In this document: positions 3 through 14,736 of the stretch, piece by piece
Position numbering within the stretch: the first letter of the stretch is position 1
How the letters are laid out: every line of letters starts with the position of its first letter
Assembly (NCBI GenBank): GCA_029882975.1
Contig: JAOUJW010000040.1
Span: forward strand, 1-51,312
Length of the DNA: 51,312 nucleotides
Reading direction: 5' to 3'
Source of the DNA: Gammaproteobacteria bacterium
GTDB lineage: Bacteria > Pseudomonadota > Gammaproteobacteria > SZUA-152
The notes under the pieces: model-generated
Databases searched by the model: none
What the model was told of the DNA's origin: nothing
The model's input: the letters and a program-made list of their open reading frames with translations, nothing else
Program-made: the position numbers and the translations under genes

Positions 3-2603
3 GCCTTTGGGTTCACCACGCAAACGGGCATCGAGCTGAACACCCAAGTAGTGTCCAATGCCACTGCCGTCACGGGAATAAATATCGCGGCTCCCATTTC
101 CATAGCCGGGGGGCAGTACTCCATCAATGGTGCTGCCTTTACCACAGTGGCCGGTACCATAAGCAATGGCCAAACCGTTGCGGTGCGCTTAACCTCGGCC
201 TCTGTGCCACTGACCGACACTATCGCCACCGTCACTATAGGAGGGGTGAGTGGTACTTTTACCGCTATAACCGGTAACAACACCCCGAATGCCTTTGGGT
301 TCACCACACAAACGGGCATCGAACTGAACACCCAAGTAGTGTCCAATGCCACTGCCGTTACGGGAATAAATATCGCGGCTCCCATTTCCATAGCCGGGGG
401 ACAGTACTCCATTGATGGTGGTGCCTTTACCACGGTGGCCGGTACCATAAGCAATGGCCAAACCGTTGCGGTGCGCTTAACCTCGGCCTCTGTGCCACTG
501 ACCGACACTACCGCCACCGTCACTATTGGTGGGGTGAGTGGTACTTTCACCGCCACTACCGGTGACAACACCCCGAATGCCTTTGGGTTCACCACACAAA
601 CGGGCATCGAGCTGAACACCCAAGTAGTGTCCAATGCCACTGCCGTCACGGGAATAAATATCGCGGCTCCCATTTCCATAGTGGGGGGACAGTACGCCAT
701 CGATGGCGGTGCTTTTACCACGGTGGCCGGTACCATAAGCAATGGCCAAACCGTTGCGGTGCGCTTAACCTCGGCCTCTGTGCCACTGACCGACACTTTC
801 GCCACCGTCACTATTGGTGGGGTGAGTGGTACTTTTACCGCTATAACCGGTAACAACACCCCGAATACCTTTGGGTTCACCACACAAACGGGCATCGAAC
901 TGAACACCCAAGTAGAGTCCAATGCCACTGCCGTTACGGGAATAAATATCGCGGCTCCCATTTCCATAGCCGGAGGACAGTACTCCATTGATGGTGGTGC
1001 CTTTACCACGGTGGCCGGTACCATAACTAACGGGCAAACGGTTGCTGTACGGTTGACATCCGCAGGAATAGCGCTAACAGATACCACAGCCACCGTCACT
1101 ATTGGTGGAGTGAGCGGTACTTTCACCGTCACAACCGGTGACAATACCCCGAATGCCTTTGGATTTACGACTCAAATGGGCATCGAGCTGAACACCCAAG
1201 TGGTTTCTAATACCTTTGCAGTTAGTGGTATAAATATCGTGGCTCCTATTTCCATAGCCGGAGGACAGTACTCCATTGATGGTGGTGCCTTTACCACGGT
1301 GGCGGGCACTATAACCAACGGCCAAACCGTTGCCGTGCGCTTAACCTCAGCCTCTGTACCACAGACGGATACCACCACGACCCTGACCATAGGCGGGGGA
1401 AGTGGCACCTTTACCGTTACCACAGGGGATAACACTCCGAATGCTTTTAGTTTTACCAGTCAGACGGGGGTTCCGGTGAGTACTCAAGTGGTATCCAACA
1501 GTGTCACCATTACCGGTATTGATATCAGTTCTCCCATCTCGATTGTCGGAGGAGAGTACTCCATAGACGCTGGTGCGTTCACGACCCTATCCGGGACCAT
1601 CACTAACGGTCAGGTTGTGGCGGTGCGCGTGACATCAGCGTCCGTGGGTCTGAGCGACACCATTGCCACTTTAACTATTGGCGGCGTTAGTGCTAATTTC
1701 ACGGTTACGACTGCCGGCGGCAGTGATACGGTACCAGACCCATTTTCGTTTACCGATCAAACGGGTGTTTCATTAAGCGCGGTAGTTGAATCCAATGCCA
1801 TTACTGTTAGCGGCATTACTGCTCCCAGTGCGATTAGCATCGTCGGCGGTGAGTATTCCATTGATGGTGCTGCCTATACTGCCGTTGCCGGCACGGTGAA
1901 CAATGGGCAAAGTGTTACGTTACGTCTAACTACTTCAGCATCGGCCTTTACTGCTACCAGTGCCACTCTGACTATTGGCGGCGTGAGTGACATTTTTACA
2001 GCGACCACCGGTGACAGTGATACATTTCCTGACGCCTTTGTTTTCTCGCCACAGAGCAATGTTTTGCTCAATACATTTATTGAATCCAATAGCGTCACGG
2101 TTACCGGTATTACTGCGCCGGCAATTATCAGTGTCACTGGAGGCGAGTATTCCATAAATGGTGGTGCTTACACTCAAAACAACGGAACCGTGAGTAATGG
2201 CCAGACCGTTACACTGCGCCAAACATCGTCTCCCATTCACTCGACTGCCACTAGCGCCACACTCAACATTGGTGGTTTGGACGGTACGTTTACGGTGACC
2301 ACTGAAACTCAGGTGGATGATGGTACACCCAATGCGTTTTCTTTTAGCAGTCGTACCAATATGGAATTGAGTACCTTGGTCCTGTCCAGTTCGACAACGG
2401 TAAGTGGAATCAATATTGCCGTTCCCATCAGCATAGTAGGCGGTGAATATAGCATTGACGGTGGTGCTTTCACTTCGGCAGCGGGTATGGTAACCGCTAC
2501 CCAGCTGGTGCGAGTCCGCCTGACTTCTGCATCTACACAGGAAACAGCAGCGACAGCAACCTTGACCATCGGTGGTGTCGACGGTACTTTTACCGTTACT
2601 ACC
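3..2603 (+). repeat. Nine tandem in-frame repeats, ~288 bp period
   Basis: Units start at 3, 291, 579, 867, 1155, 1443, 1740, 2034 and 2334. The first five are exactly 288 bp (96 codons) and nearly identical; the last four diverge and vary in length (297, 294, 300 and about 270 bp). Units 1 and 3 share variants that 2 and 4 lack, and the reverse, so a two-unit (576 bp) block seems to have been duplicated. Because the window opens inside the array, total copy number is unknown. Confidence 0.95.
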
Positions 2604-4670
2604 CGGGGTTATCGCATAGGTGGTACGATTTCCGGGTTGGCCAGTCCTTCTCTGGAGCTGAACCTAAATGGCAGTTTGGGTTTTCAAGCAGAAACTGATG
2701 GCGCATATGCCATGGGCAATCTCACCAATTCAGCAACCTATGAAGTAACGGTTAGCCTTCAGCCCACAGAGCCGGACCAGGTATGTAACGTCAGCAATGG
2801 CAGCGGTACCATCGGCGGTGCGGATATTACAAATGTTATTATTGACTGCACTGTTGTGAATTACAGCATTGGCGGTAATGTGAGCGGTTTAAGCGGTTCA
2901 GGTTTGGCACTGCAGATTAACGGTGCGGAAATCATTCCAGTAGGAAATGGGGTATTTGGATTTTCTACCACCATACCTGATTTAAGCCGCTACGATATCA
3001 GTATCAGCAGTCAACCCACGGGCGAAACCTGTGTACTGAGTAATGCCTACGGTATTGTCAGAGGTGCTAATGTTTCCGATGTGACGGTTCAATGTAATCC
3101 CACAGGGGTCGCTTTGTCCACATTACGACCTATACAGGATAACCAAGCCATTGTTATTAATTTTGATCAATCCATGGCTCCGGCCAGTTTGGTGCTAGGT
3201 GGTGATTTAAGCAGTCAGGGTGTTTTTGTCTGGAGTACCACTACCGTCGCTAACGATACTCTGACCTTTACCCCTACGACAGTCTGGTCTTTGGGTATGA
3301 ACCAAACTCTGAGTGTTGACGTCAACAATGCTTCAGGTCAGCCAATCATTCCACAGTCTTTGGCTTTTGATGTATTCAATGCGCCCATCTATTTTGTCAG
3401 CGGCTCCGCGTTGGATGATACAGGCGACGGCCTGAGTCCGGTCACGGCTTTACGGACACTGCAGGTGGCGATAAATAATGCGGTTCCGCCGGCGGTGGTA
3501 GTGGCGAATGCCGGGGATCATAATATCAGTGCAGCCATTAGCCTTCGTGATGGCGTATCCTTATACGGCGGTTACAAGCAGGATTTTAAAGATCGGGATG
3601 TGGGACGTTATGTGACGGATGTTTTATCGCCGGGAACCAATAATGCAATAGTCGCCGGTAACGGAGTTACTTCCAGCACAACTGTAGACGGATTATCGGT
3701 TCACTCATCCGCCAGTACCATAGTGTCTATCAGTAGCAGCGCGGAGCCGGTATTCAGAAACAATACCATTGTGGCTGAAACCTCCATAGGTTCTCAATAT
3801 ATAATGCGTATTATCGGATCAAGTCCCGTGATAGAGAGCAATACCTTGTTGGGTTCGCGTGGGCGTGGGAGTTTTCAGTATGGGGTTTATATCACTGGAT
3901 CCGGGCCAATCCTTCGTAACAATACCATCGTTGCCGCGAGAGGTTTTTACGTGTCATTTGCATATGGTGTGTACCTAAGTTCAAGCACCGGAACCTTAAT
4001 TACCGGAAATTTAATCACTCCACTGACACAAACCGGGGCATTTGCCTATGCTATAAATAGTAGCACTTCCGTATTTGAGGCTTACAATAATATAATCCAT
4101 GCCGGGGATGGCTCCTTTAACTACGGCTTGAATTTGTCGGGAGTTTCCAGTCCGATTATTCGTAATAACATTATCAATGGCGGTACCGGAGCTTTTGAAT
4201 ATGCGGTTTATTTGAGCTCAGATGTTACACCGTTTATAGATAATAATATTTTGTATACGACCAGCAACGATCGCTGTGTACACACAAATGGCGCTGGAAC
4301 CAACTTGAGCAGTTTTAGGAATAACGATTTGTATTCCTGTTCGTCACTTATGTATTTTTATGTGGATGGCAGCGGCTGTGCCGCCAATGATATTTGTCCC
4401 GCCACAATCGATGAGTTGAACACAACTGTACCTAATGCTTCGAGCAATGTGAGTGTGGATCCCCTGTATGAATCCGAAGGTGGTTTGGATGGAGATGTCA
4501 GTACGCCATTGGACAATGACTGGCATTTCAGTCTCAGCAGTCCCATCAGCGTAACGCAGGGTGGTTTGAATGGTATTGATGATGGCGGTTGGGGCTTTAA
4601 CAGCGATAAAGACGGTATAGTCAGACCTGCCACCGGGAGTCCCTGGTCCATCGGGCCATACGAGCCGTAG
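3..4670 (+). CDS. Giant repeat-containing surface/exported protein, 5' end outside the window
   Basis: The reading frame is open from the first bases of the window, so the true start and any signal peptide lie upstream; the GTG at 51 is only the first possible start inside. The visible ~1555 residues read in order as: nine tandem beta-rich repeats of 90-100 residues (bases 3-2603; recurring motifs ISIAGGQYSIDGGAF, NGQTVAVRLTSA, ATVTIGGVSGTF); two ~84-residue modules starting YRIGG/YSIGG, each with a Cys pair (2604-3107); a segment resembling a bacterial Ig-like (Big_5) domain (about 3108-3388); and a right-handed beta-helix region (about 3390-4650) starting YFVSG and rich in NNTI-type turns. 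This architecture is typical of secreted or cell-surface adhesin-like proteins. No enzyme site or C-terminal anchor is visible, and the protein ends with IGPYEP. Function is unknown; adhesion or matrix binding is inferred from architecture only. Confidence 0.85.
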   Translation, partial: AFGFTTQTGIELNTQVVSNATAVTGINIAAPISIAGGQYSINGAAFTTVAGTISNGQTVAVRLTSASVPLTDTIATVTIGGVSGTFTAITGNNTPNAFGFTTQTGIELNTQVVSNATAVTGINIAAPISIAGGQYSIDGGAFTTVAGTISNGQTVAVRLTSASVPLTDTTATVTIGGVSGTFTATTGDNTPNAFGFTTQTGIELNTQVVSNATAVTGINIAAPISIVGGQYAIDGGAFTTVAGTISNGQTVAVRLTSASVPLTDTFATVTIGGVSGTFTAITGNNTPNTFGFTTQTGIELNTQVESNATAVTGINIAAPISIAGGQYSIDGGAFTTVAGTITNGQTVAVRLTSAGIALTDTTATVTIGGVSGTFTVTTGDNTPNAFGFTTQMGIELNTQVVSNTFAVSGINIVAPISIAGGQYSIDGGAFTTVAGTITNGQTVAVRLTSASVPQTDTTTTLTIGGGSGTFTVTTGDNTPNAFSFTSQTGVPVSTQVVSNSVTITGIDISSPISIVGGEYSIDAGAFTTLSGTITNGQVVAVRVTSASVGLSDTIATLTIGGVSANFTVTTAGGSDTVPDPFSFTDQTGVSLSAVVESNAITVSGITAPSAISIVGGEYSIDGAAYTAVAGTVNNGQSVTLRLTTSASAFTATSATLTIGGVSDIFTATTGDSDTFPDAFVFSPQSNVLLNTFIESNSVTVTGITAPAIISVTGGEYSINGGAYTQNNGTVSNGQTVTLRQTSSPIHSTATSATLNIGGLDGTFTVTTETQVDDGTPNAFSFSSRTNMELSTLVLSSSTTVSGINIAVPISIVGGEYSIDGGAFTSAAGMVTATQLVRVRLTSASTQETAATATLTIGGVDGTFTVTTRGYRIGGTISGLASPSLELNLNGSLGFQAETDGAYAMGNLTNSATYEVTVSLQPTEPDQVCNVSNGSGTIGGADITNVIIDCTVVNYSIGGNVSGLSGSGLALQINGAEIIPVGNGVFGFSTTIPDLSRYDISISSQPTGETCVLSNAYGIVRGANVSDVTVQCNPTGVALSTLRPIQDNQAIVINFDQSMAPASLVLGGDLSSQGVFVWSTTTVANDTLTFTPTTVWSLGMNQTLSVDVNNASGQPIIPQSLAFDVFNAPIYFVSGSALDDTGDGLSPVTALRTLQVAINNAVPPAVVVANAGDHNISAAISLRDGVSLYGGYKQDFKDRDVGRYVTDVLSPGTNNAIVAGNGVTSSTTVDGLSVHSSASTIVSISSSAEPVFRNNTIVAETSIGSQYIMRIIGSSPVIESNTLLGSRGRGSFQYGVYITGSGPILRNNTIVAARGFYVSFAYGVYLSSSTGTLITGNLITPLTQTGAFAYAINSSTSVFEAYNNIIHAGDGSFNYGLNLSGVSSPIIRNNIINGGTGAFEYAVYLSSDVTPFIDNNILYTTSNDRCVHTNGAGTNLSSFRNNDLYSCSSLMYFYVDGSGCAANDICPATIDELNTTVPNASSNVSVDPLYESEGGLDGDVSTPLDNDWHFSLSSPISVTQGGLNGIDDGGWGFNSDKDGIVRPATGSPWSIGPYEP

Positions 4671-6334: not shown

Positions 6335-6748
6335 ATGCCTACAGTAACAATAGAAGTAAAAAGACATTGGTCCGCTGAACAAAAACAGCAAATCTTGACG
6401 GCGATTCATGGCGCTATGGTGGATGCACTGAAAATTCCCGAACACGATAAGTTGATGCGATTTATTGAACACAGCCCGGAGAACTTCGTCACTCCGCCTG
6501 ATACATCGGATAACTATACTCTGGTTGAGGTTTCTTTGTTCAGCGGGCGTAGCCTGGATGCAAAACGAGCCTTGTACGCCGCTATTGTAGCCGGGTTGCA
6601 ACCCTTGGGGATTGATCCTATGGATATCAGAATCGTATTGTATGAAGTGCCGCCGGACAATTGGGGTTTGCGCGGTGGGATACCGGCATCTGAGTTAAAT
6701 TTTGGATTTAAACGGGAATGTGATCACCCTTTAGGGTTTAAGGATTGA
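6335..6748 (+). CDS. Tautomerase family protein
   Basis: This 137-residue protein starts MPTVTIEV, keeping the N-terminal Pro (Pro2 before Met removal) that serves as catalytic base in the tautomerase superfamily. It continues with EQKQQILTAIHGAMVDAL, the first helix of the beta-alpha-beta fold, and a second copy-like half with GRSLDAKRALYAAIVAGL and IRIVLYEVPPDNWG, as in the longer Tautomerase_2 type. The physiological substrate is not predictable. Its 3' end overlaps the 3' end of the rhodanese gene on the other strand by 25 bp. Confidence 0.8.
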   Translation: MPTVTIEVKRHWSAEQKQQILTAIHGAMVDALKIPEHDKLMRFIEHSPENFVTPPDTSDNYTLVEVSLFSGRSLDAKRALYAAIVAGLQPLGIDPMDIRIVLYEVPPDNWGLRGGIPASELNFGFKRECDHPLGFKD

Positions 6749-7173
6749 GTTTTTATGGCGACGGGGCCTTGTGCGCGCCAAGCCTCCATTCCACCTATTA
6801 GGTTTTTAGCGCCGACAAAACCCGCTTTGTTGAGTAAGGCCGTCGCGCGCGGCCCACGGGAGCTGCCCTCGTTACAGTAAACAATGATTTCTTTGGTTTT
6901 GTGAGTGGCAAATTCGTCCAGACGCCGCTCCAATTCACCAATGGGGACAGATACGGCGTTGGGGATATGGTCTTTGTCATAAGCGCTTTTTTCCCGCACA
7001 TCCAGCACCAATACACCGGTTTGGGCTAGCAGCAAGATGGCATCACTGACGCTCATGGATTCCACGTGGGGCGTTGACAGTGTTGGTTTACCGGCGTTGC
7101 TGACAGCAAACAAAACGACTAATAGACAGATCCCTAACAAAGTCGCAATTTCTGTGCGTGGTATTGCCTGCAT
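6724..7173 (-). CDS. Membrane-anchored or periplasmic rhodanese-like protein
   Basis: This 149-residue protein has one N-terminal hydrophobic segment (residues ~9-27, an uncleaved anchor or signal peptide) followed by a single rhodanese domain: VLDVREKSAYDKDHIPNAV, then the active-site loop with Cys100 in YCNEGSSRG, and a C-terminal GGMEAW helix. The loop cysteine is present, so sulfur transfer is possible. AGGAG lies upstream of the ATG. It is downstream of, and on the same strand as, the GNAT-C39 gene with a 116-bp gap, so a joint transcript is possible. The donor and acceptor of sulfur are unknown. Confidence 0.85.
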   Translation of the reverse strand: MQAIPRTEIATLLGICLLVVLFAVSNAGKPTLSTPHVESMSVSDAILLLAQTGVLVLDVREKSAYDKDHIPNAVSVPIGELERRLDEFATHKTKEIIVYCNEGSSRGPRATALLNKAGFVGAKNLIGGMEAWRAQGPVAIKTQSLNPKG

Positions 7174-7289
7174 GGCTTACTCCTGGTGGTTTTACGCCCG
7201 GGGGCTAATCTCCTTTTAACTATAACGGCGGCGAGGGGGCGGATAACGAGAACTCGGTCACGGAATGTGACTACGGCTTACAATATCCG

Positions 7290-8432
7290 TTACTGTCCCA
7301 ATACCAGCAGGCAGCGCAGACGTTTGCGGCCAAATCGGGCCATGGAGTGGAACATACTGCGGGTAACCGGTACATGAATATAGTCGGTTTCACTCAATTG
7401 CGAGCTGGCCACGTCCGGGTCGTTAATATAGAAGAATTCAGCGTCGTACCCGGTGATATAAACCCAGTGGGGTGCCTTGTTACGGTTTAAGCGCCAAGTG
7501 CTGATCAGTGCAATGACCGGTTTACCTTGTTCCAGGATTTTGTCCAGTTCCTCATCATCCAAGGTGCTGATATTCAATTGAATATCGGTTTGGTCAATTC
7601 TGTGCAAGAAGTCTTCGTGAACCAACTCCATGACCGATTTTTTTTCCGGGTCCCGAACGCCGTCGGTAAAGGGGGCCGCATGGGAGTTCGTATACAGCTG
7701 GACTTTAAAACCCCTCTGATTGGCGCTGAGGGCCAGTCCGTGGGGAGAACAACCGCCGTGGCCGGAGGTCATAAAGATGGTGGTCGCCTCACGCCAGATC
7801 TGCAGTTCCTCGGAGCGGGAAAATGGATAATTCGGGTCGACGGTTTTAAAACCCATCATTAAAGCGGCCGGTCCGCAGGTAAAATCCGTGGTTTGGCGGT
7901 AATAGGGTTTGGTTGAGGCATGGCTGCGAACCGGTTGGCGTAAGCGTTTTTCCATGCGCAAGGCGTCTGCGCCGTCATCGTAGTAGGCGCTGATGCGGTC
8001 AATGATTTTGTAGTGGTATTTCTCGTACAGTTTGATCGCGGTAAAATTGTTTACGTTGACTTCCAGCCGTAAAAAAACACAATGATGGGCCAGCGCAGTT
8101 TGTTCAGAGGCAGCCATTAAGAGGTTTGCTAAACCCATACCGTGGTGCCTGGTCGAAATCGCGATAGAGTACATTCTGGCCAAATTGGTTCCTGATCGAT
8201 ACAGATTGAGCACATAACCCAGAATCTGCTTGCCGTCGTCCAGTACCACAAGATCGTGCGGGCCTGGTTTGATCAGTCGCTGAAAACTGCGTCTGGAGAG
8301 TCTATCGGTATCAAAACACTCTGTTTCAATGTCCAAAAGTTGGGGTATATCTGCAGCTAAGGCCAGCCGTGTATTTATGGTGGGCAAAGGTTTTTGGCTG
8401 GTGCGGCGGTTGATTAATTTAGCGTTTGTCAT
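7290..8432 (-). CDS. GNAT acetyltransferase fused to a C39-like peptidase
   Basis: This 380-residue two-domain protein starts with a GNAT N-acetyltransferase (residues ~20-165; acetyl-CoA loop STRHHGMGLANLLM at ~93-106, then EVNVNNFTAIKLYEKYHY). Residues ~172-380 form a papain-fold C39-like peptidase with Cys186 in TDFTCGPAALMMG, His322 in PHWVYITGYD and Asp338 in NDPD, the expected catalytic triad. The fusion is known in gammaproteobacteria next to RimK-like ATP-grasp genes, and here such a gene is divergent across 175 bp. Comparative genomics has linked such sets to peptide synthesis or peptide tagging. Whether the peptidase trims the ligase product and the GNAT domain caps it is inference. 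The domain calls are firm, the pathway is not. Confidence 0.88.
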   Translation of the reverse strand: MTNAKLINRRTSQKPLPTINTRLALAADIPQLLDIETECFDTDRLSRRSFQRLIKPGPHDLVVLDDGKQILGYVLNLYRSGTNLARMYSIAISTRHHGMGLANLLMAASEQTALAHHCVFLRLEVNVNNFTAIKLYEKYHYKIIDRISAYYDDGADALRMEKRLRQPVRSHASTKPYYRQTTDFTCGPAALMMGFKTVDPNYPFSRSEELQIWREATTIFMTSGHGGCSPHGLALSANQRGFKVQLYTNSHAAPFTDGVRDPEKKSVMELVHEDFLHRIDQTDIQLNISTLDDEELDKILEQGKPVIALISTWRLNRNKAPHWVYITGYDAEFFYINDPDVASSQLSETDYIHVPVTRSMFHSMARFGRKRLRCLLVLGQ

Positions 8433-8607
8433 ACTGATGTCTTGAAAATTTCAGCTATTATAATCCAGGATGTTCAATTAAGCATAGACACTGACTATCT
8501 CTGATAGAAGCAACCTCCACGATAAGTTTACAAAAATATTTGTTGTTTTTTTAAAAGCAGGCAGCATAACATACACCACTTCTTAACATCTCTTTTGAGA
8601 CTATAGT

Positions 8608-10086
8608 ATGACTGATTTTTATGTGGTCGTGGACGACCCAAGCGACTGGCAGCCCTATTACCCCAGCCAGGATGTGATAAGTTTTGACGATTATCTTGAT
8701 AAAGTAGGAGCAGCAAAGAAAAGCCGAGTCCGAATCATAAATTTGTGCCGATCGTACCGTTACCTGGGTACCGGTTACTATTGTTCCTTATTGGGCGAAG
8801 CCCGGGGGCACCATGTGTTCCCGTCAGCGGCGACCATTAATGAGTTACATCGCAAAAACCTGTCCTTAATGGACTTGGACGATGCCGTTAAGGTCCTGAA
8901 AAAACTACCCGCAGGGCAGGCAGGGGATACCTTACAGTTTCGTTGTTGGTTCGGACAAACTCAGGACCCAAACTACAGCCGTATTGCCCAGATCGTTTTT
9001 GAACGTTACCCCTGTCCTATTCTCGAGGTGAGTCTTAGCTTTAAAATCGAATGGCAGGTACGCCAGGTGAAAGCTATTTCACTGAAATCCCTAAGTAATC
9101 CGGAGGAACAGGAGGCCTTTGCCAATACCTTCGAGCAATTCAGTCGCAAGATGTGGCTCAAACCCAAAGCCAGAAAAACCTATCGATACGATTTGGCCAT
9201 ACTGGTGGATCCGGAAGAGTCTATTCCGCCAAGCAATCCAAAGGCATTAAAATCCTTTGTCAAAGCGGGTAAGCAATTGGGTATTGATGTGGATATGATT
9301 ACCCGACGGGATTTTGTCCGTGTGTCAGAGTACGATGGTTTATTCATTCGCGAAACCACGGCAGTGGATCACCACACCTATCGATTTGCCAAGCGGGCAG
9401 AGGCGGACGACTTGGTGGTTATCGATGATTCCACGTCCATATTGCGGTGTACGAATAAGATCTATTTGGCAGATTTGCTCAAAACTCATCGCATCCCCAC
9501 GCCTGTTACGGTGGTTCTGAATCAACCGGATACCAAAGAACTGGAAAAATTGGTAGAACAAATCGGGTTACCCATTGTGCTCAAAATTCCTGATGGCTCA
9601 TTTTCACGAGGTGTCATAAAAGCGGATACCTTTGAACAGCTTCAGGCGGGGGTTAAAACCTTATTAAAAGAATCAGCGCTTTTGCTGGCGCAGGAATTTT
9701 TGTATACCGATTACGATTGGCGTATCGGTATTCTCAATAACAAACCGTTGTACGCCTGCCGGTATTATATGGTGCAAGATCATTGGCAAATCTATAAGCA
9801 TAATGCCAATGGGGCTGCGAAGTCCGGTGGATTTGATTCCATTCCTACTTTTGAGACACCCAAGGCGGTACTGGATGTGGCCGTGCAAAGTTGTAAACTC
9901 ATTGGCAATGGTCTGTACGGTGTGGATATCAAGCAATCGAAAGATCGCGTTGTGGTAATCGAAATTAATGATAATCCCAGCATCGAATCCGGCGTGGAAG
10001 ATGGTTACCTGGGGGAGCAGTTGTATGTAGAAATTATGGGTGAGTTTCTACGGCGTATGGAAGCCAGAGGGCGTACCAAACACTAA
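8608..10086 (+). CDS. RimK-like ATP-grasp ligase with N-terminal RLAN domain
   Basis: This 492-residue protein has an N-terminal domain of ~200 residues (starts MTDFYVVVDDP, includes RIINLCRSYRYLGTGYYCSLL), typical of the 'RimK-like ATP-grasp N-terminal' domain. A pre-ATP-grasp part follows, then an ATP-grasp domain (residues ~270-490) with the lid LPIVLKIPDGSFSRGV, the basic strand YDWRIGILNNKP and the Mg-binding strand EINDNPSIESG (Glu452, Asn454). ATP-grasp enzymes of this group join an amino acid or peptide to a carboxylate through an acyl phosphate. It is much longer than RimK itself (~300 aa), so S6 glutamylation should not be assumed. It is divergent from the GNAT-C39 gene, and the DUF155 gene starts one base after its stop, which indicates an operon. 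Confidence 0.88.
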   Translation: MTDFYVVVDDPSDWQPYYPSQDVISFDDYLDKVGAAKKSRVRIINLCRSYRYLGTGYYCSLLGEARGHHVFPSAATINELHRKNLSLMDLDDAVKVLKKLPAGQAGDTLQFRCWFGQTQDPNYSRIAQIVFERYPCPILEVSLSFKIEWQVRQVKAISLKSLSNPEEQEAFANTFEQFSRKMWLKPKARKTYRYDLAILVDPEESIPPSNPKALKSFVKAGKQLGIDVDMITRRDFVRVSEYDGLFIRETTAVDHHTYRFAKRAEADDLVVIDDSTSILRCTNKIYLADLLKTHRIPTPVTVVLNQPDTKELEKLVEQIGLPIVLKIPDGSFSRGVIKADTFEQLQAGVKTLLKESALLLAQEFLYTDYDWRIGILNNKPLYACRYYMVQDHWQIYKHNANGAAKSGGFDSIPTFETPKAVLDVAVQSCKLIGNGLYGVDIKQSKDRVVVIEINDNPSIESGVEDGYLGEQLYVEIMGEFLRRMEARGRTKH

Positions 10087-10087
10087 A

Positions 10088-10879
10088 ATGAACGGTTTAG
10101 ATATTTATACATTATGTTGTTGTGAACAATTGGACTTTGTTCAATTAAAACTACAACACCCGGATAGGGGGCGTTTTAGCAGCTACCGTAATGCGGTGCA
10201 CTGGCCTCAGGAACGGGGGGATGTGTATTTGTTCGACTATGGCGCATTAGTGTTTTGGGATGTGGACCCGGAGCGCAGGACGCGAGTAATTGACGGTTTG
10301 GCGCCCTATATGTTTAACCCGCTATCCGACAATGTAGACGACGAATTTACCTATGAGGTCACCGACGGCCAACGGCGAATCAATGATGACCATATTAGAG
10401 TTTCAGAACATGATGTGATGACCCAATTGGCGTTGAGCCATGCCATGGCTCAATCGACCAAATTGGGTTCGTTTGAGCAACGCATACAGGACACCATTAA
10501 CGATACCGCGCACATTCCAAAAAACATTGCAAATACAGGCAGTTCACGCTTGGGACGCAAAGCGTTGGCGAAATTGCGAGGGCGTTTGTTTTTGGCAAAA
10601 AGCGATATTATGCTCAAGTACGACTTGCTGGATGTGCCCGATTTCTTTTGGGAATATCCGGAACTGGATGGTTACTACAATATGCTGGCGGACTATTTGG
10701 AAGTTCGACAGCGTGTGGAAGTGCTAAGCAAAAAACTGGAAACCATACACGAGCTGTTTGAAATGATGGCTGACGAGCAAAAGCATAAGCATTCATCGTT
10801 GTTGGAATGGATCATTATCTGGCTGATTGCTTTTGAAATTGTGGTGTTTCTGGTTCACGATATTTTTGATTGGATCTAG
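10088..10879 (+). CDS. RMD1/YagE (DUF155) family protein with C-terminal membrane anchor
   Basis: I place the start at ATG 10088, one base after the RimK-like stop; a longer frame from GTG 10040 would overlap that gene by 47 bp and adds unrelated residues. The 263-residue product matches the RMD1/RMND1/YagE (DUF155) family: a beta-rich N-terminal half containing YLFDYGALVFWDVDPE, a helical segment with LALSHAMAQSTKLGSFE, PDFFWEYPELDGYY, a coiled coil (VRQRVEVLSKKLETIHELFE) and a terminal membrane helix after SSLLEWIIIWLIAFE. Mitochondrial members are inner-membrane proteins needed for translation; bacterial roles are unclear. Tight coupling to the ATP-grasp gene suggests they act together. 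Confidence 0.82.
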   Translation: MNGLDIYTLCCCEQLDFVQLKLQHPDRGRFSSYRNAVHWPQERGDVYLFDYGALVFWDVDPERRTRVIDGLAPYMFNPLSDNVDDEFTYEVTDGQRRINDDHIRVSEHDVMTQLALSHAMAQSTKLGSFEQRIQDTINDTAHIPKNIANTGSSRLGRKALAKLRGRLFLAKSDIMLKYDLLDVPDFFWEYPELDGYYNMLADYLEVRQRVEVLSKKLETIHELFEMMADEQKHKHSSLLEWIIIWLIAFEIVVFLVHDIFDWI

Positions 10880-11775: not shown

Positions 11776-14736
11776 ATGACCTATTTCAATTTCTCAATGC
11801 GTTTTATAGCTACGACTGTTTTTTTGATTCTTGCTGCATGTGGCGGCGGCGGAGGTGGTGCTGGAGAAGGAGGCGGTGGTGGCGGAGGCGGAGGCGAAGT
11901 CATCCTTGACTGTAACGTGTGTATGAGCGGAAAACCCTCATTTGCTGCCAATACTATCCCGGCCGGCAGTTCCGGTAGTATGACCGTACCTATCAGTACC
12001 GACGTGGTATCGGTAACCGCATCTTTGGTTCTGCCCGGTAATGATACGATTTCTCTGAGCAGTGTTATCAATTCCGGCGGTACTTCCGCAACCTTCGATT
12101 TCACTCCGCCAACCTACATTGATGTAGGTCAGTACTATGCCAGGATTACCGTTTCTGACGGTGCGGGAAATAGCACGCGTTACACTTTGAGCGCAGCAAC
12201 CTCCACGACGCAATACACCATGGAGACCAGCAGCGACTATGGCTTTAACTGGACCAGTCCGGTTAGTTCCGGAATTAACCTGGCCTATGTCACTGTGGGT
12301 ATGTTAAGCGGTGTGCCCTACCTGACTGCCAGTCCGGTATTGGATCCCATACCGATGGTTGCCGGACGCCCGGCTACAGCGACACTGCCGGTATCCACCG
12401 GAACAGCCAGTGTTAAAGTCACCGTGCACGATTCATCCTCGGCTCAGGTGGAAATCGGCGCCGGTACAACAACCCATGGAGGTAGTGCCGGTAGTGTGGA
12501 TGTGGCCTTAGATGTTCCCGATTCGATTCATTATTCCGCAACCGCTAAAATTGAGATCTCCGATAGCAGCGGAAACAATATTTCCCGCTATTTCATCGAA
12601 TCCACAGTAGGATTGACCCCGCTGATTATTCAACAGTCAACGGATGCCGGAGTGAGTTGGAGTACTGTGCGCACAACGGCCTTTGCCATGTCGGCCTTTA
12701 ATATCGTATACCCACCGACACCGGTGCTCACCGGTGAGGTCAGTCTCAGCCCGGCGCTGATTTATGCCGGTCAGACCGTGGAAGTCAGTATTATCGCCAC
12801 AGGCAATGCCTCGGATTATAGTGTGAATTTTCTCGATGTCAGCGGTGTCTCCGGGGGAACAGCCTCTGTACAAAACGGTGTTGTTCCCGTGCCCATTGGG
12901 ACATCGGCAAGCGGCGACTATTATCCCAGGTTGGTAATCAGTGACAGCTCCGGGGTGAACATGACGCGGTATACTAAACAAGTTTCAGGCACTGCCTATG
13001 AAGAGGAACAGTCTTTTGACAGTGGTGTCAGCTGGGGGGCGGTGAATCTCATGGCTTACAATGCGCCGGTGCTACAGGTAGTCCAGGCTTTGGCTGCAGC
13101 ACCGACCATGACGACGGCACCATTGATCAGTCATAGTGATGTGGACACCGGGTTTACGCTTACTGTCGATGTAGCTACGGACAGCGCAGCAAACATTGCA
13201 GTGAATTTAGTGGATTCCACCGGAACCCTGGTAGGTACCGGTACAGCCGTGGCCACATCTGCCGGGACACTAAGCGTGGCTGTAACCGTTGATGGGACTG
13301 CGTCTCCCGGTGCTTACTATCCCATGGTTACCTTGGATGATGGTTCCGGTGCTGTTTCGCAATACAGTCGTGATGCGGCATTGTCGGTTGTCCACTACGC
13401 CTTAAAACAATCTTCCGACAGCGGTGTCACTTGGTCTGTGAGCGGTTCGGTGGGTGCAAAACTTCCGTGGTTAAACGTGGCGCAGCCGATTGTGGGTGCC
13501 CCCGTATTAACCGGAGCGCCAAGCTTTGACAAAACTGCGGTGCTTCCCGGAGAAATAGTAACCCTTACACTGCCAGTAAGTACAGATACCGTAACGGTAG
13601 ATGTGAGTATGATTTACCAAACCTGTCCTTTGTGCGGCACCACCACTGCCGGTACTGCCAGTGTGACCAATAGTGGTAACGCCAGCATAGCCATTCCTAT
13701 CACCATGGGCGATGCGGTGACCACATACAGTTCCAGTCTGCTGGATTACAGTGCTAAAGTGGTTCTTAAAGATGTTTCCGGCCAGTTGCTGAGTGAATAC
13801 GAACCGGACTGGGGGGGCACGATGACTTATCGGGTGCGTCAATCCGATGATGCCGGTGGTAATTGGATCAGCTACATGGGCCCATTGATGGCCGATCAGG
13901 TGACCATGCGGTATTATTCCGAGGGGACTTTAACCGCCCCCACACCCATTGGCACAGCGCCGCTGTTGTTTAACGGTGTTGCCAAGGCAGGCGGCAGTTT
14001 TGGCGTGTTTGCAGCCGATGACGGTTTTGACAGTTATTATTCCTTTACCGTCAAACCATACACTTCCTATTCCATCATTTTGACGGACCCAAACAACAAT
14101 ATTATCCAAAGGCCTTTTAAAACCAGTCCAAGCAACGATCCCACCGCAGTGGTATGCACTGCCGCCGATGCCAATACCTGTATCATTCGCAGTGATTCGG
14201 GGCAAACGACGCTTTATGTCGTAGCGGATGCTGTGTACACATCCTCAAACGGTGGTGCACAGTACCAGTTTGAGGTCACGGAATATCCGGCGGAAACAGT
14301 AGCGCAGACCATTGATTTTGAAACGGGTGTATTCCCGGCTTCACTGGTATTGACCTATTCAGGTAGCAGTAACATCCAGTGGGCGATCAGCACAGCGCAG
14401 AACACCACCGCTGGAGGCGCTAACAGTATTTACGCCAATATACCTGCATTTGAAAATAATGCCTGTTTCAGTATCTCCGTGGAGGGTATGGCCCGGGTCG
14501 ATTTTAACTATATCGCTGATACGGTCCGAAACGTGGGTGACTTTCTTACCTTTTACGTGAATGGTGTACAACAAGGGCAGTACACCGCCAAGACCGGATG
14601 GACCGCCGCTAATTTTGCCTTAAGTGGCGTGGTGGGAACTCGGGATATGTTGAGTTGGTGTTTAAACCGTGATCCAATGTCTTCTGGACTAAACCCGGTG
14701 TCCGCCTATGTGGATGACATTGTGCTGACCCCGTAG
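11776..14736 (+). CDS. Large lipoprotein: glycine linker, five Asp-box modules, PPC-like domain
   Basis: This 986-residue protein opens with a lipoprotein signal peptide ending in LAAC (lipidated Cys22), followed by an almost pure glycine linker (residues 23-40). Five beta-rich modules of 125-145 residues follow, each ending in S-x-D-x-G-x-x-W at residues 152-159, 288-295, 413-420, 546-553 and 690-697. This matches the Asp-box of sialidase/BNR-type beta-propellers. Next comes a PPC-like domain (about 725-845, Cys pair TAVVCTAADANTC) and a C-terminal jelly-roll-like domain (about 850-986) ending DDIVLTP. It is probably an outer-membrane, surface-exposed binding protein. No catalytic residues are recognisable and the ligand is unknown. 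Gene context gives no further clue. Confidence 0.85.
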   Translation: MTYFNFSMRFIATTVFLILAACGGGGGGAGEGGGGGGGGGEVILDCNVCMSGKPSFAANTIPAGSSGSMTVPISTDVVSVTASLVLPGNDTISLSSVINSGGTSATFDFTPPTYIDVGQYYARITVSDGAGNSTRYTLSAATSTTQYTMETSSDYGFNWTSPVSSGINLAYVTVGMLSGVPYLTASPVLDPIPMVAGRPATATLPVSTGTASVKVTVHDSSSAQVEIGAGTTTHGGSAGSVDVALDVPDSIHYSATAKIEISDSSGNNISRYFIESTVGLTPLIIQQSTDAGVSWSTVRTTAFAMSAFNIVYPPTPVLTGEVSLSPALIYAGQTVEVSIIATGNASDYSVNFLDVSGVSGGTASVQNGVVPVPIGTSASGDYYPRLVISDSSGVNMTRYTKQVSGTAYEEEQSFDSGVSWGAVNLMAYNAPVLQVVQALAAAPTMTTAPLISHSDVDTGFTLTVDVATDSAANIAVNLVDSTGTLVGTGTAVATSAGTLSVAVTVDGTASPGAYYPMVTLDDGSGAVSQYSRDAALSVVHYALKQSSDSGVTWSVSGSVGAKLPWLNVAQPIVGAPVLTGAPSFDKTAVLPGEIVTLTLPVSTDTVTVDVSMIYQTCPLCGTTTAGTASVTNSGNASIAIPITMGDAVTTYSSSLLDYSAKVVLKDVSGQLLSEYEPDWGGTMTYRVRQSDDAGGNWISYMGPLMADQVTMRYYSEGTLTAPTPIGTAPLLFNGVAKAGGSFGVFAADDGFDSYYSFTVKPYTSYSIILTDPNNNIIQRPFKTSPSNDPTAVVCTAADANTCIIRSDSGQTTLYVVADAVYTSSNGGAQYQFEVTEYPAETVAQTIDFETGVFPASLVLTYSGSSNIQWAISTAQNTTAGGANSIYANIPAFENNACFSISVEGMARVDFNYIADTVRNVGDFLTFYVNGVQQGQYTAKTGWTAANFALSGVVGTRDMLSWCLNRDPMSSGLNPVSAYVDDIVLTP

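Follow-up and report, generated by a model that had tools for sequence, protein, structure and literature searches.

A recurring gene association of an RLAN ATP-grasp ligase, a GNAT-C39 peptidase fusion and a DUF155 protein in bacteria

The window, which here means the whole stretch of DNA that was analysed, comprises 51,312 nucleotides from a Gammaproteobacteria bacterium (GTDB SZUA-152; assembly GCA_029882975.1, contig JAOUJW010000040.1, positions 1-51,312, forward strand). It carries a cluster of three genes that form the subject of this report: an RLAN-type, RimK-like ATP-grasp ligase of 492 residues (8608..10086, plus strand), a GNAT domain fused to a C39-like (DUF3335) cysteine peptidase of 380 residues (7290..8432, minus strand), and a DUF155 protein of the RMND1/Mrx10 family, 263 residues long with a predicted C-terminal membrane stretch (10088..10879, plus strand). 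The GNAT-C39 and ligase genes are divergent and are separated by a 175-bp gap (8433..8607), which presumably holds the promoters of both and which is occupied by a DUF2817 gene in two family relatives (loci L198 and L199). The ligase stop codon ends at 10086 and the DUF155 ATG lies at 10088, leaving a single nucleotide between them provided that translation begins there; a GTG at 10040 lies in the same open frame. An earlier note on this DNA had recognised these three genes and a neighbouring rhodanese gene, and their positions are confirmed by the coordinates of the open reading frames (ORFs) and by Pfam matches over cut-off, as are the divergent layout and, provided that DUF155 starts at the ATG, the 1-nucleotide gap.

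The ligase matches PF14401 (RLAN) at 153.9 bits (cut-off 25), followed by PF08443 (RimK-type ATP-grasp) at 43 bits (cut-off 21), and its residues K326, R372, D440, E452 and N454 are invariant in all 38 aligned proteins. Judged from its predicted model (predicted local distance difference test, pLDDT, 87), the ATP-grasp part has ArgX (Z 28.4), LysX (Z 28.3) and RimK (Z 27.7) tied as nearest folds, followed by Ddl (Z 24.8) and glutathione synthetase (Z 22.5). The protein is not RimK, the ribosomal protein S6 ligase, since it scores 82.2 against a cut-off of 143.4 with TIGR00768 and 39.1 against 331 with PRK10446. Nor does it serve as the only RimK of its genome, as a RimK over cut-off is also found in 10 of 10 linked genomes. 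In two genomes of one genus (G101 and G318, loci L042 and L175) the RLAN-DUF155 pair is followed, some 4 kb downstream, by a true RimK gene.

The GNAT-C39 protein combines DUF3335 (275.7 bits, cut-off 25) and Acetyltransf_1 (50.9 bits, cut-off 20.7) in one chain. A Cys186/His322/Asp338 triad had been noticed before; C186 and H322, together with Q180, prove invariant in 22 of 22 aligned proteins, and residue 338 is D in 20 of these and E in the other 2. The best matches of the GNAT part among solved structures are N-alpha-acetyltransferases. Two more specific identities were ruled out: the S18 N-terminal acetyltransferase RimI, whose model TIGR01575 is the best NCBI match but reaches 67 bits against a cut-off of 86.4, and a bacteriocin leader peptidase of the C39 type, because PF03412 (Peptidase_C39) scores 20.5 against a cut-off of 22 and the chain has no transporter domain.

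The DUF155 protein matches PF02582 at 165.1 bits (cut-off 27). Its most hydrophobic 19-residue stretch, residues 238-256 in a hydropathy scan, is predicted to form a single membrane anchor, as is residues 9-27 of the rhodanese, in agreement with the anchors proposed earlier for both. The DUF155 model (pLDDT 88.7) gave no Foldseek match under an E value of 0.001, and no sequence relative was found among solved structures apart from one chance match (E 0.54). With VIA-align, most whole-length matches were to CorA, CmaX, MRS2 and ZntB at Z of about 7-9.3, which is background level for helical proteins; CmaX came out at Z 9.3 (root-mean-square deviation 4.4, 188 residues aligned), with unrelated helical bundles at similar Z. 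These four are membrane proteins with a head, a stalk helix and a membrane end that resemble the DUF155 model. Among the matches listed in a literature search on RMND1 with CorA/MRS2, RMND1 appears in none.

The pairing of RLAN ligases with GNAT-peptidases is a known prediction rather than a new one: Iyer et al. reportedly proposed it in 2009, and that prediction matches the window in its ligase and GNAT-C39 genes. To our knowledge no product has been assigned to the pair. The DUF3335-GNAT fusion is likewise already described (PMC10318531, which cites Iyer et al.). Among 185 genomes drawn from the window's class, 44 carry RLAN and 33 carry DUF3335, 29 of the latter with strong matches; 27 of these strong matches are next to RLAN on one contig, and the other two genomes either have no RLAN match (G154) or carry RLAN on another contig (G060). 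The pairing thus holds as the earlier note supposed. A second set consisted of named records, the best-scoring 80 of at least 582, which are therefore biased to window-like ligases, with 79 loci counted by a gene-label rule; among these, 45 have a full GNAT-C39 gene and 28 a short ORF (<250 residues) matching the GNAT-C39 profile, such loci being recognised by profile and length alone. RLAN neighbourhoods are of different types: type A contains GNAT-C39, and in type B RLAN is accompanied by a GCS2-type ligase, an FGase-type hydrolase and a C39-like peptidase encoded on its own. The type B genes form a second ligase operon (L056, L176, L191 and others), with tight spacing in L056 and L176.

The RLAN ligase, GNAT-C39 and DUF155 form a recurring association. 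In the main co-occurrence sample of 369 genomes drawn from the window's class, RLAN is present in 80 and DUF155 in 51, of which 49 are over cut-off, the matches in G315 and G052 being dropped from the count. Both families occur together in 28 genomes against 10.6 expected (Fisher p 4e-9, ignoring kinship). DUF155 lies within 5 kb of RLAN in nine of these 28 (G000, G004, G094, G101, G242, G249, G271, G318 and G335), which belong to seven families; chance alone would produce about 0.1 (for a 3-Mb genome) to 0.3 (for a 1.1-Mb genome) such linkages among the 28. DUF155 is also near in 3 of the 80 named records, namely a metagenome-assembled genome with the same contig as the family relative G370, gamma proteobacterium HdN1 and Methylomicrobium sp. 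wino1. A draw of 299 genomes across the phylum yielded DUF155 in 32, with RLAN within 5 kb in 13; eleven of these linked loci come from a single family outside the class (f200), in which DUF155 is linked in 11 of 13 cases. Twenty phylum loci were viewed wide and eight with 1.5-kb flanks, and G402 and G522 were left out. Among the 20, RLAN is near in 12, one (L239) has GNAT-C39 and DUF2817 with no RLAN within 6 kb, and seven have none of the system genes, including one (L242) whose contig ends 1.6 kb after DUF155.

Across the class draw, the named records and the other class, 26 loci place DUF155 no more than 5 kb from RLAN and/or GNAT-C39, in 11 gene orders. Far from adjoining the ligase in this genome only, DUF155 thus recurs in several families and in a family of another class, and its tie to the ligase and GNAT-C39 suggested earlier is upheld. 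The count of orders omits L088, a 291-residue ORF that matches the GNAT-C39 profile in a genome with no DUF3335 match, and L198, a duplicate that shares contig number and length with L092. GNAT-C39 is present in 24 of the 26 loci; the remaining two, which have a convergent DUF155, belong to type B. In 9 of 10 type A loci DUF155 overlaps the next system gene or lies within 32 bp of it, the tenth being the window with 1 bp counted from the ATG; in L199 the gap is 51 bp. The neighbour is not always the ligase, as DUF155 adjoins GNAT-C39 or DUF2817 in HdN1, Methylomicrobium wino1, L173, L239 and L241.

In a tree of 70 ligases the linkage to DUF155 needs 6 changes; 12 type B rows form one clade apart from 46 type A rows, and the six short-ORF named loci included (Rhodanobacteraceae and relatives, Halomonadaceae) fall within the type A clade. 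In a tree of 59 DUF155 proteins, made by a quick method with long branches flagged, the linkage needs 7 changes, 5 of them forced by starred branches, and in a careful 38-row tree without f200 the linked genes are again split over both subfamilies; one DUF155 protein cut by a contig end (L068, 159 residues) was omitted from the DUF155 trees. Within family f200, and even within its genus g325, DUF155 proteins of either deep subfamily accompany RLAN, GNAT-C39 and DUF2817, the order being GNAT-C39, RLAN, DUF155 and a facing DUF2817 with one subfamily, and DUF155 and DUF2817 facing RLAN and GNAT-C39 with the other. That two deep subfamilies fill the same slot is as expected if the system needs some DUF155, and the 11 gene orders with changing orientation make frozen synteny unlikely. 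Within the window's family, 24 sampled genomes include four with RLAN (G000, G369, G370 and G375) and three with DUF155, a patchy spread that looks like transfer and loss.

A further recurring partner, DUF2817, had been overlooked in the earlier note. It is found in 18 of the 24 GNAT-C39 loci that hold DUF155 and in 13 of the 79 named loci, and Methylomicrobium sp. wino1 carries it together with the ligase, GNAT-C39 and DUF155. Two family relatives with the window's divergent layout (G370 and G375) carry it between GNAT-C39 and RLAN, so its absence from the window's genome probably reflects a loss in the window lineage. By column counts, H78, E81, H229 and E297 of DUF2817 are invariant in 30 of 30 proteins, although an earlier, stricter motif fitted just 11 of the 30; these residues presumably correspond to those of M14/AstE-type zinc enzymes, and DUF2817 weakly matches AstE/AspA. 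In class-draw type A loci a zinc hydrolase lies within 5 kb in 17 of 34 cases (ArgE-type M20 in 7, M14 in 6, DUF2817 in 4). The 34 type A loci out of 54 are a lower bound, because the GNAT-C39 gene of L043 (G127), placed beside RLAN by a profile search, escaped gene calling. All three M20 proteins checked (L033, L060 and L197) are ArgE over cut-off, and this housekeeping enzyme may be a mere neighbour. In several families the GNAT-C39/RLAN pair is divergent from the M20 gene (L033, L041, L060 and L197), and ArgA follows in L041 and L060.

The rhodanese, by comparison, does not belong to the set. Its gene (149 residues, 6724-7173, minus strand; Pfam 70.7 bits, cut-off 22.2) lies 116 bp beyond GNAT-C39 in the window, and a rhodanese is near RLAN in the window alone, that is in 1 of 54 class-draw loci and in none of the 79 named loci; none was found among the 20 wide phylum loci with a one-sequence profile at E 1e-6. 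Of the four families that had been grouped into one cluster, the ligase, GNAT-C39 and DUF155 therefore stand by their recurring linkage, and the rhodanese falls away. A tautomerase gene (6335-6748, plus strand) converges on the rhodanese gene with an overlap of 25 bases (6724-6748). The cluster is flanked by two large repeat-rich ORFs (window 51-4670 and 11776-14736), one of 1539 residues with many near-identical repeats and the other of 986 residues, lipoprotein-like, with a cysteine near its start and then a glycine run.

From the repeated linkage of the genes, their tight spacing, the conservation of catalytic residues and the fold class of the ligase, we tentatively propose that the RLAN ligase, GNAT-C39, DUF155 and, where kept, DUF2817 form a single system, located at the inner membrane, that makes and removes amide bonds at the ends of polypeptides; we lean to this proposal without granting it the better part of the probability. 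In such a system the ligase would use ATP to activate a carboxylate and, in the manner of RimK and LysX/ArgX, extend the tail of a peptide or protein by an amino acid, the C39 domain would cut the peptide, and the fused GNAT domain would acetylate, and thereby block, an alpha-amino group. DUF2817, elsewhere perhaps an M14 enzyme, would hydrolyse the product again, and DUF155 would anchor the enzymes to the membrane. For other ATP-grasp families it has been proposed in print that a GNAT may cap the product of a linked ligase (PMC4431377). Several observations weigh against this proposal. The system is known here from genes and predicted models alone, and the RimK-like fold of the ligase leaves its substrate unfixed. 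The Fisher probability takes no account of kinship, and in 17 of the 28 genomes with both families the genes are unlinked, with two more (G022 and G170, one genus) at 7 kb. Of the 80 genomes with RLAN, 52 lack DUF155, and of the 49 with DUF155, 21 lack RLAN. The window's genome has no DUF2817 match, and a genome of the same genus (G369) has RLAN and GNAT-C39 but no DUF155 match; that pair is distant from the window's RLAN and GNAT-C39 (43% and 36% identity) and lies beside M20.

The main rival, which is possible though doubtful, holds that the pathway yields a short, free, N-acetylated peptide, with the GNAT acetylating, the ligase adding the next residue, and the C39 peptidase and the zinc hydrolase processing and recycling it. 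The N-acetylglutaminylglutamine amide (NAGGN) osmolyte pathway and the N-acetylaspartylglutamate (NAAG) pathway of the brain make N-acetyl peptides and can serve as models, and they share with the present set a GNAT, an ATP-grasp ligase and a zinc hydrolase, whereas the C39 peptidase and DUF155 are extra here. Hydrolases from N-acyl amino acid and carboxypeptidase families lie nearby (DUF2817, FGase in type B, ArgE in some type A loci), no tail-bearing substrate gene is recognised in the neighbourhood, and no short ORF is kept beyond near relatives, all of which would suit a free peptide. However, ArgE, as a housekeeping gene, may be a mere neighbour, the GNAT has its closest matches among protein N-terminal acetyltransferases and RimI, the ligase model most resembles protein-tail ligases, and a soluble metabolite needs no membrane docking protein. 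The NAGGN synthetase model TIGR03103 also has no match among the window proteins at E 0.001, and a relative (L199) reaches 19.7 against 569.

Two other explanations are less probable still. DUF155 might be a passenger that owes its place next to the ligase pair to history and has a separate membrane job, which would fit the observations that RLAN is not a neighbour of most DUF155 genes seen (in the phylum draw it is for 13 of 32, with 8 of the others viewed only with 1.5-kb flanks and 2 unseen) and that most RLAN loci lack DUF155 (near in 3 of 79 named loci). This is improbable given the eleven gene orders and changing orientation, the filling of one slot by two deep subfamilies within one family, and the five loci listed above in which DUF155 adjoins GNAT-C39 or DUF2817 rather than the ligase. 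The least probable explanation is a pathway for a ribosomally synthesized and post-translationally modified peptide (RiPP), in which C39 would cleave the leader from a ribosomal precursor, leaving a new N-terminus for the GNAT to cap and a core for the ligase to modify. The C39-type fold with conserved catalytic residues is compatible with it, and graspetides are made by ATP-grasp enzymes (PMC8939145). Yet Peptidase_C39 stays under cut-off, no ABC exporter was noted alongside the window's C39 protein, and a local precursor was not found: among 1097 short ORFs at 133 loci (20-90 residues, not overlapping larger ones, within 2.5 kb of the ligase or GNAT-C39), the widest similarity groups span 5 loci, all Marinobacter, and 3 loci of one family, so that conservation is confined to near relatives.

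For the proposed editing of polypeptide ends, the nearest precedents in action are, by analogy, RimK with RimB and RloABC with its membrane part. In the Pseudomonas RimABK system the protease RimB removes what the ligase RimK adds to the RpsF tail (PMC11957791), and RloABC adds a membrane protein to the theme of a RimK-like ligase and a protease (PMC12239564). The likeness lies in a RimK-like ATP-grasp ligase beside a protease, but the window's protease is C39-like and fused to a GNAT, its ligase bears RLAN and stays under the RimK cut-offs, and DUF155 and DUF2817 are added. A general Pfam scan of nine window proteins gave no aspartic-protease match, and no search aimed at RimB was made. LysX/ArgX with the carrier LysW resemble the set in the nearest fold of the ATP-grasp module and in combining a ligase with a zinc hydrolase; a LysW-dependent carrier pathway is not supported, as no LysW over cut-off was found in 10 linked genomes, the best reaching 16.1 against 53.2 bits (G000). 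Compared with the ligase/GNAT-peptidase prediction, DUF155 and DUF2817 as recurring partners are absent from the literature consulted. Among the matches listed in a literature search, for which subscription papers were mostly outside scope, DUF155 and DUF2817 were linked to these ligases in none.

RMND1 resides in an inner-membrane complex that supports mitochondrial translation and has been proposed to tether ribosomes (PMC7564844). The bacterial proteins share with RMND1/Mrx10 the DUF155 domain and a membrane stretch, but any ribosome contact of theirs is conjectural. The ligase is kin to RimK, the acetyltransferase to RimI and the membrane protein to RMND1, so that all three have relatives working on or near the ribosome. 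By this analogy it is conceivable, although a long shot, that DUF155 proteins in bacteria act as the membrane platform of a terminus-editing machine whose targets, at the inner membrane, are the ends of ribosomal or nascent proteins.

To conclude, the recurrence of a zinc hydrolase and a membrane protein beside the ligase/GNAT-peptidase pair narrows down the chemistry that the pair may perform and hints at where it acts. RMND1 is a human mitochondrial disease gene for which data on the exact role are described as still limited (PMC7564844). A bacterial DUF155 gene set with definable enzymes makes the RMND1 family testable by gene removal in culturable strains.

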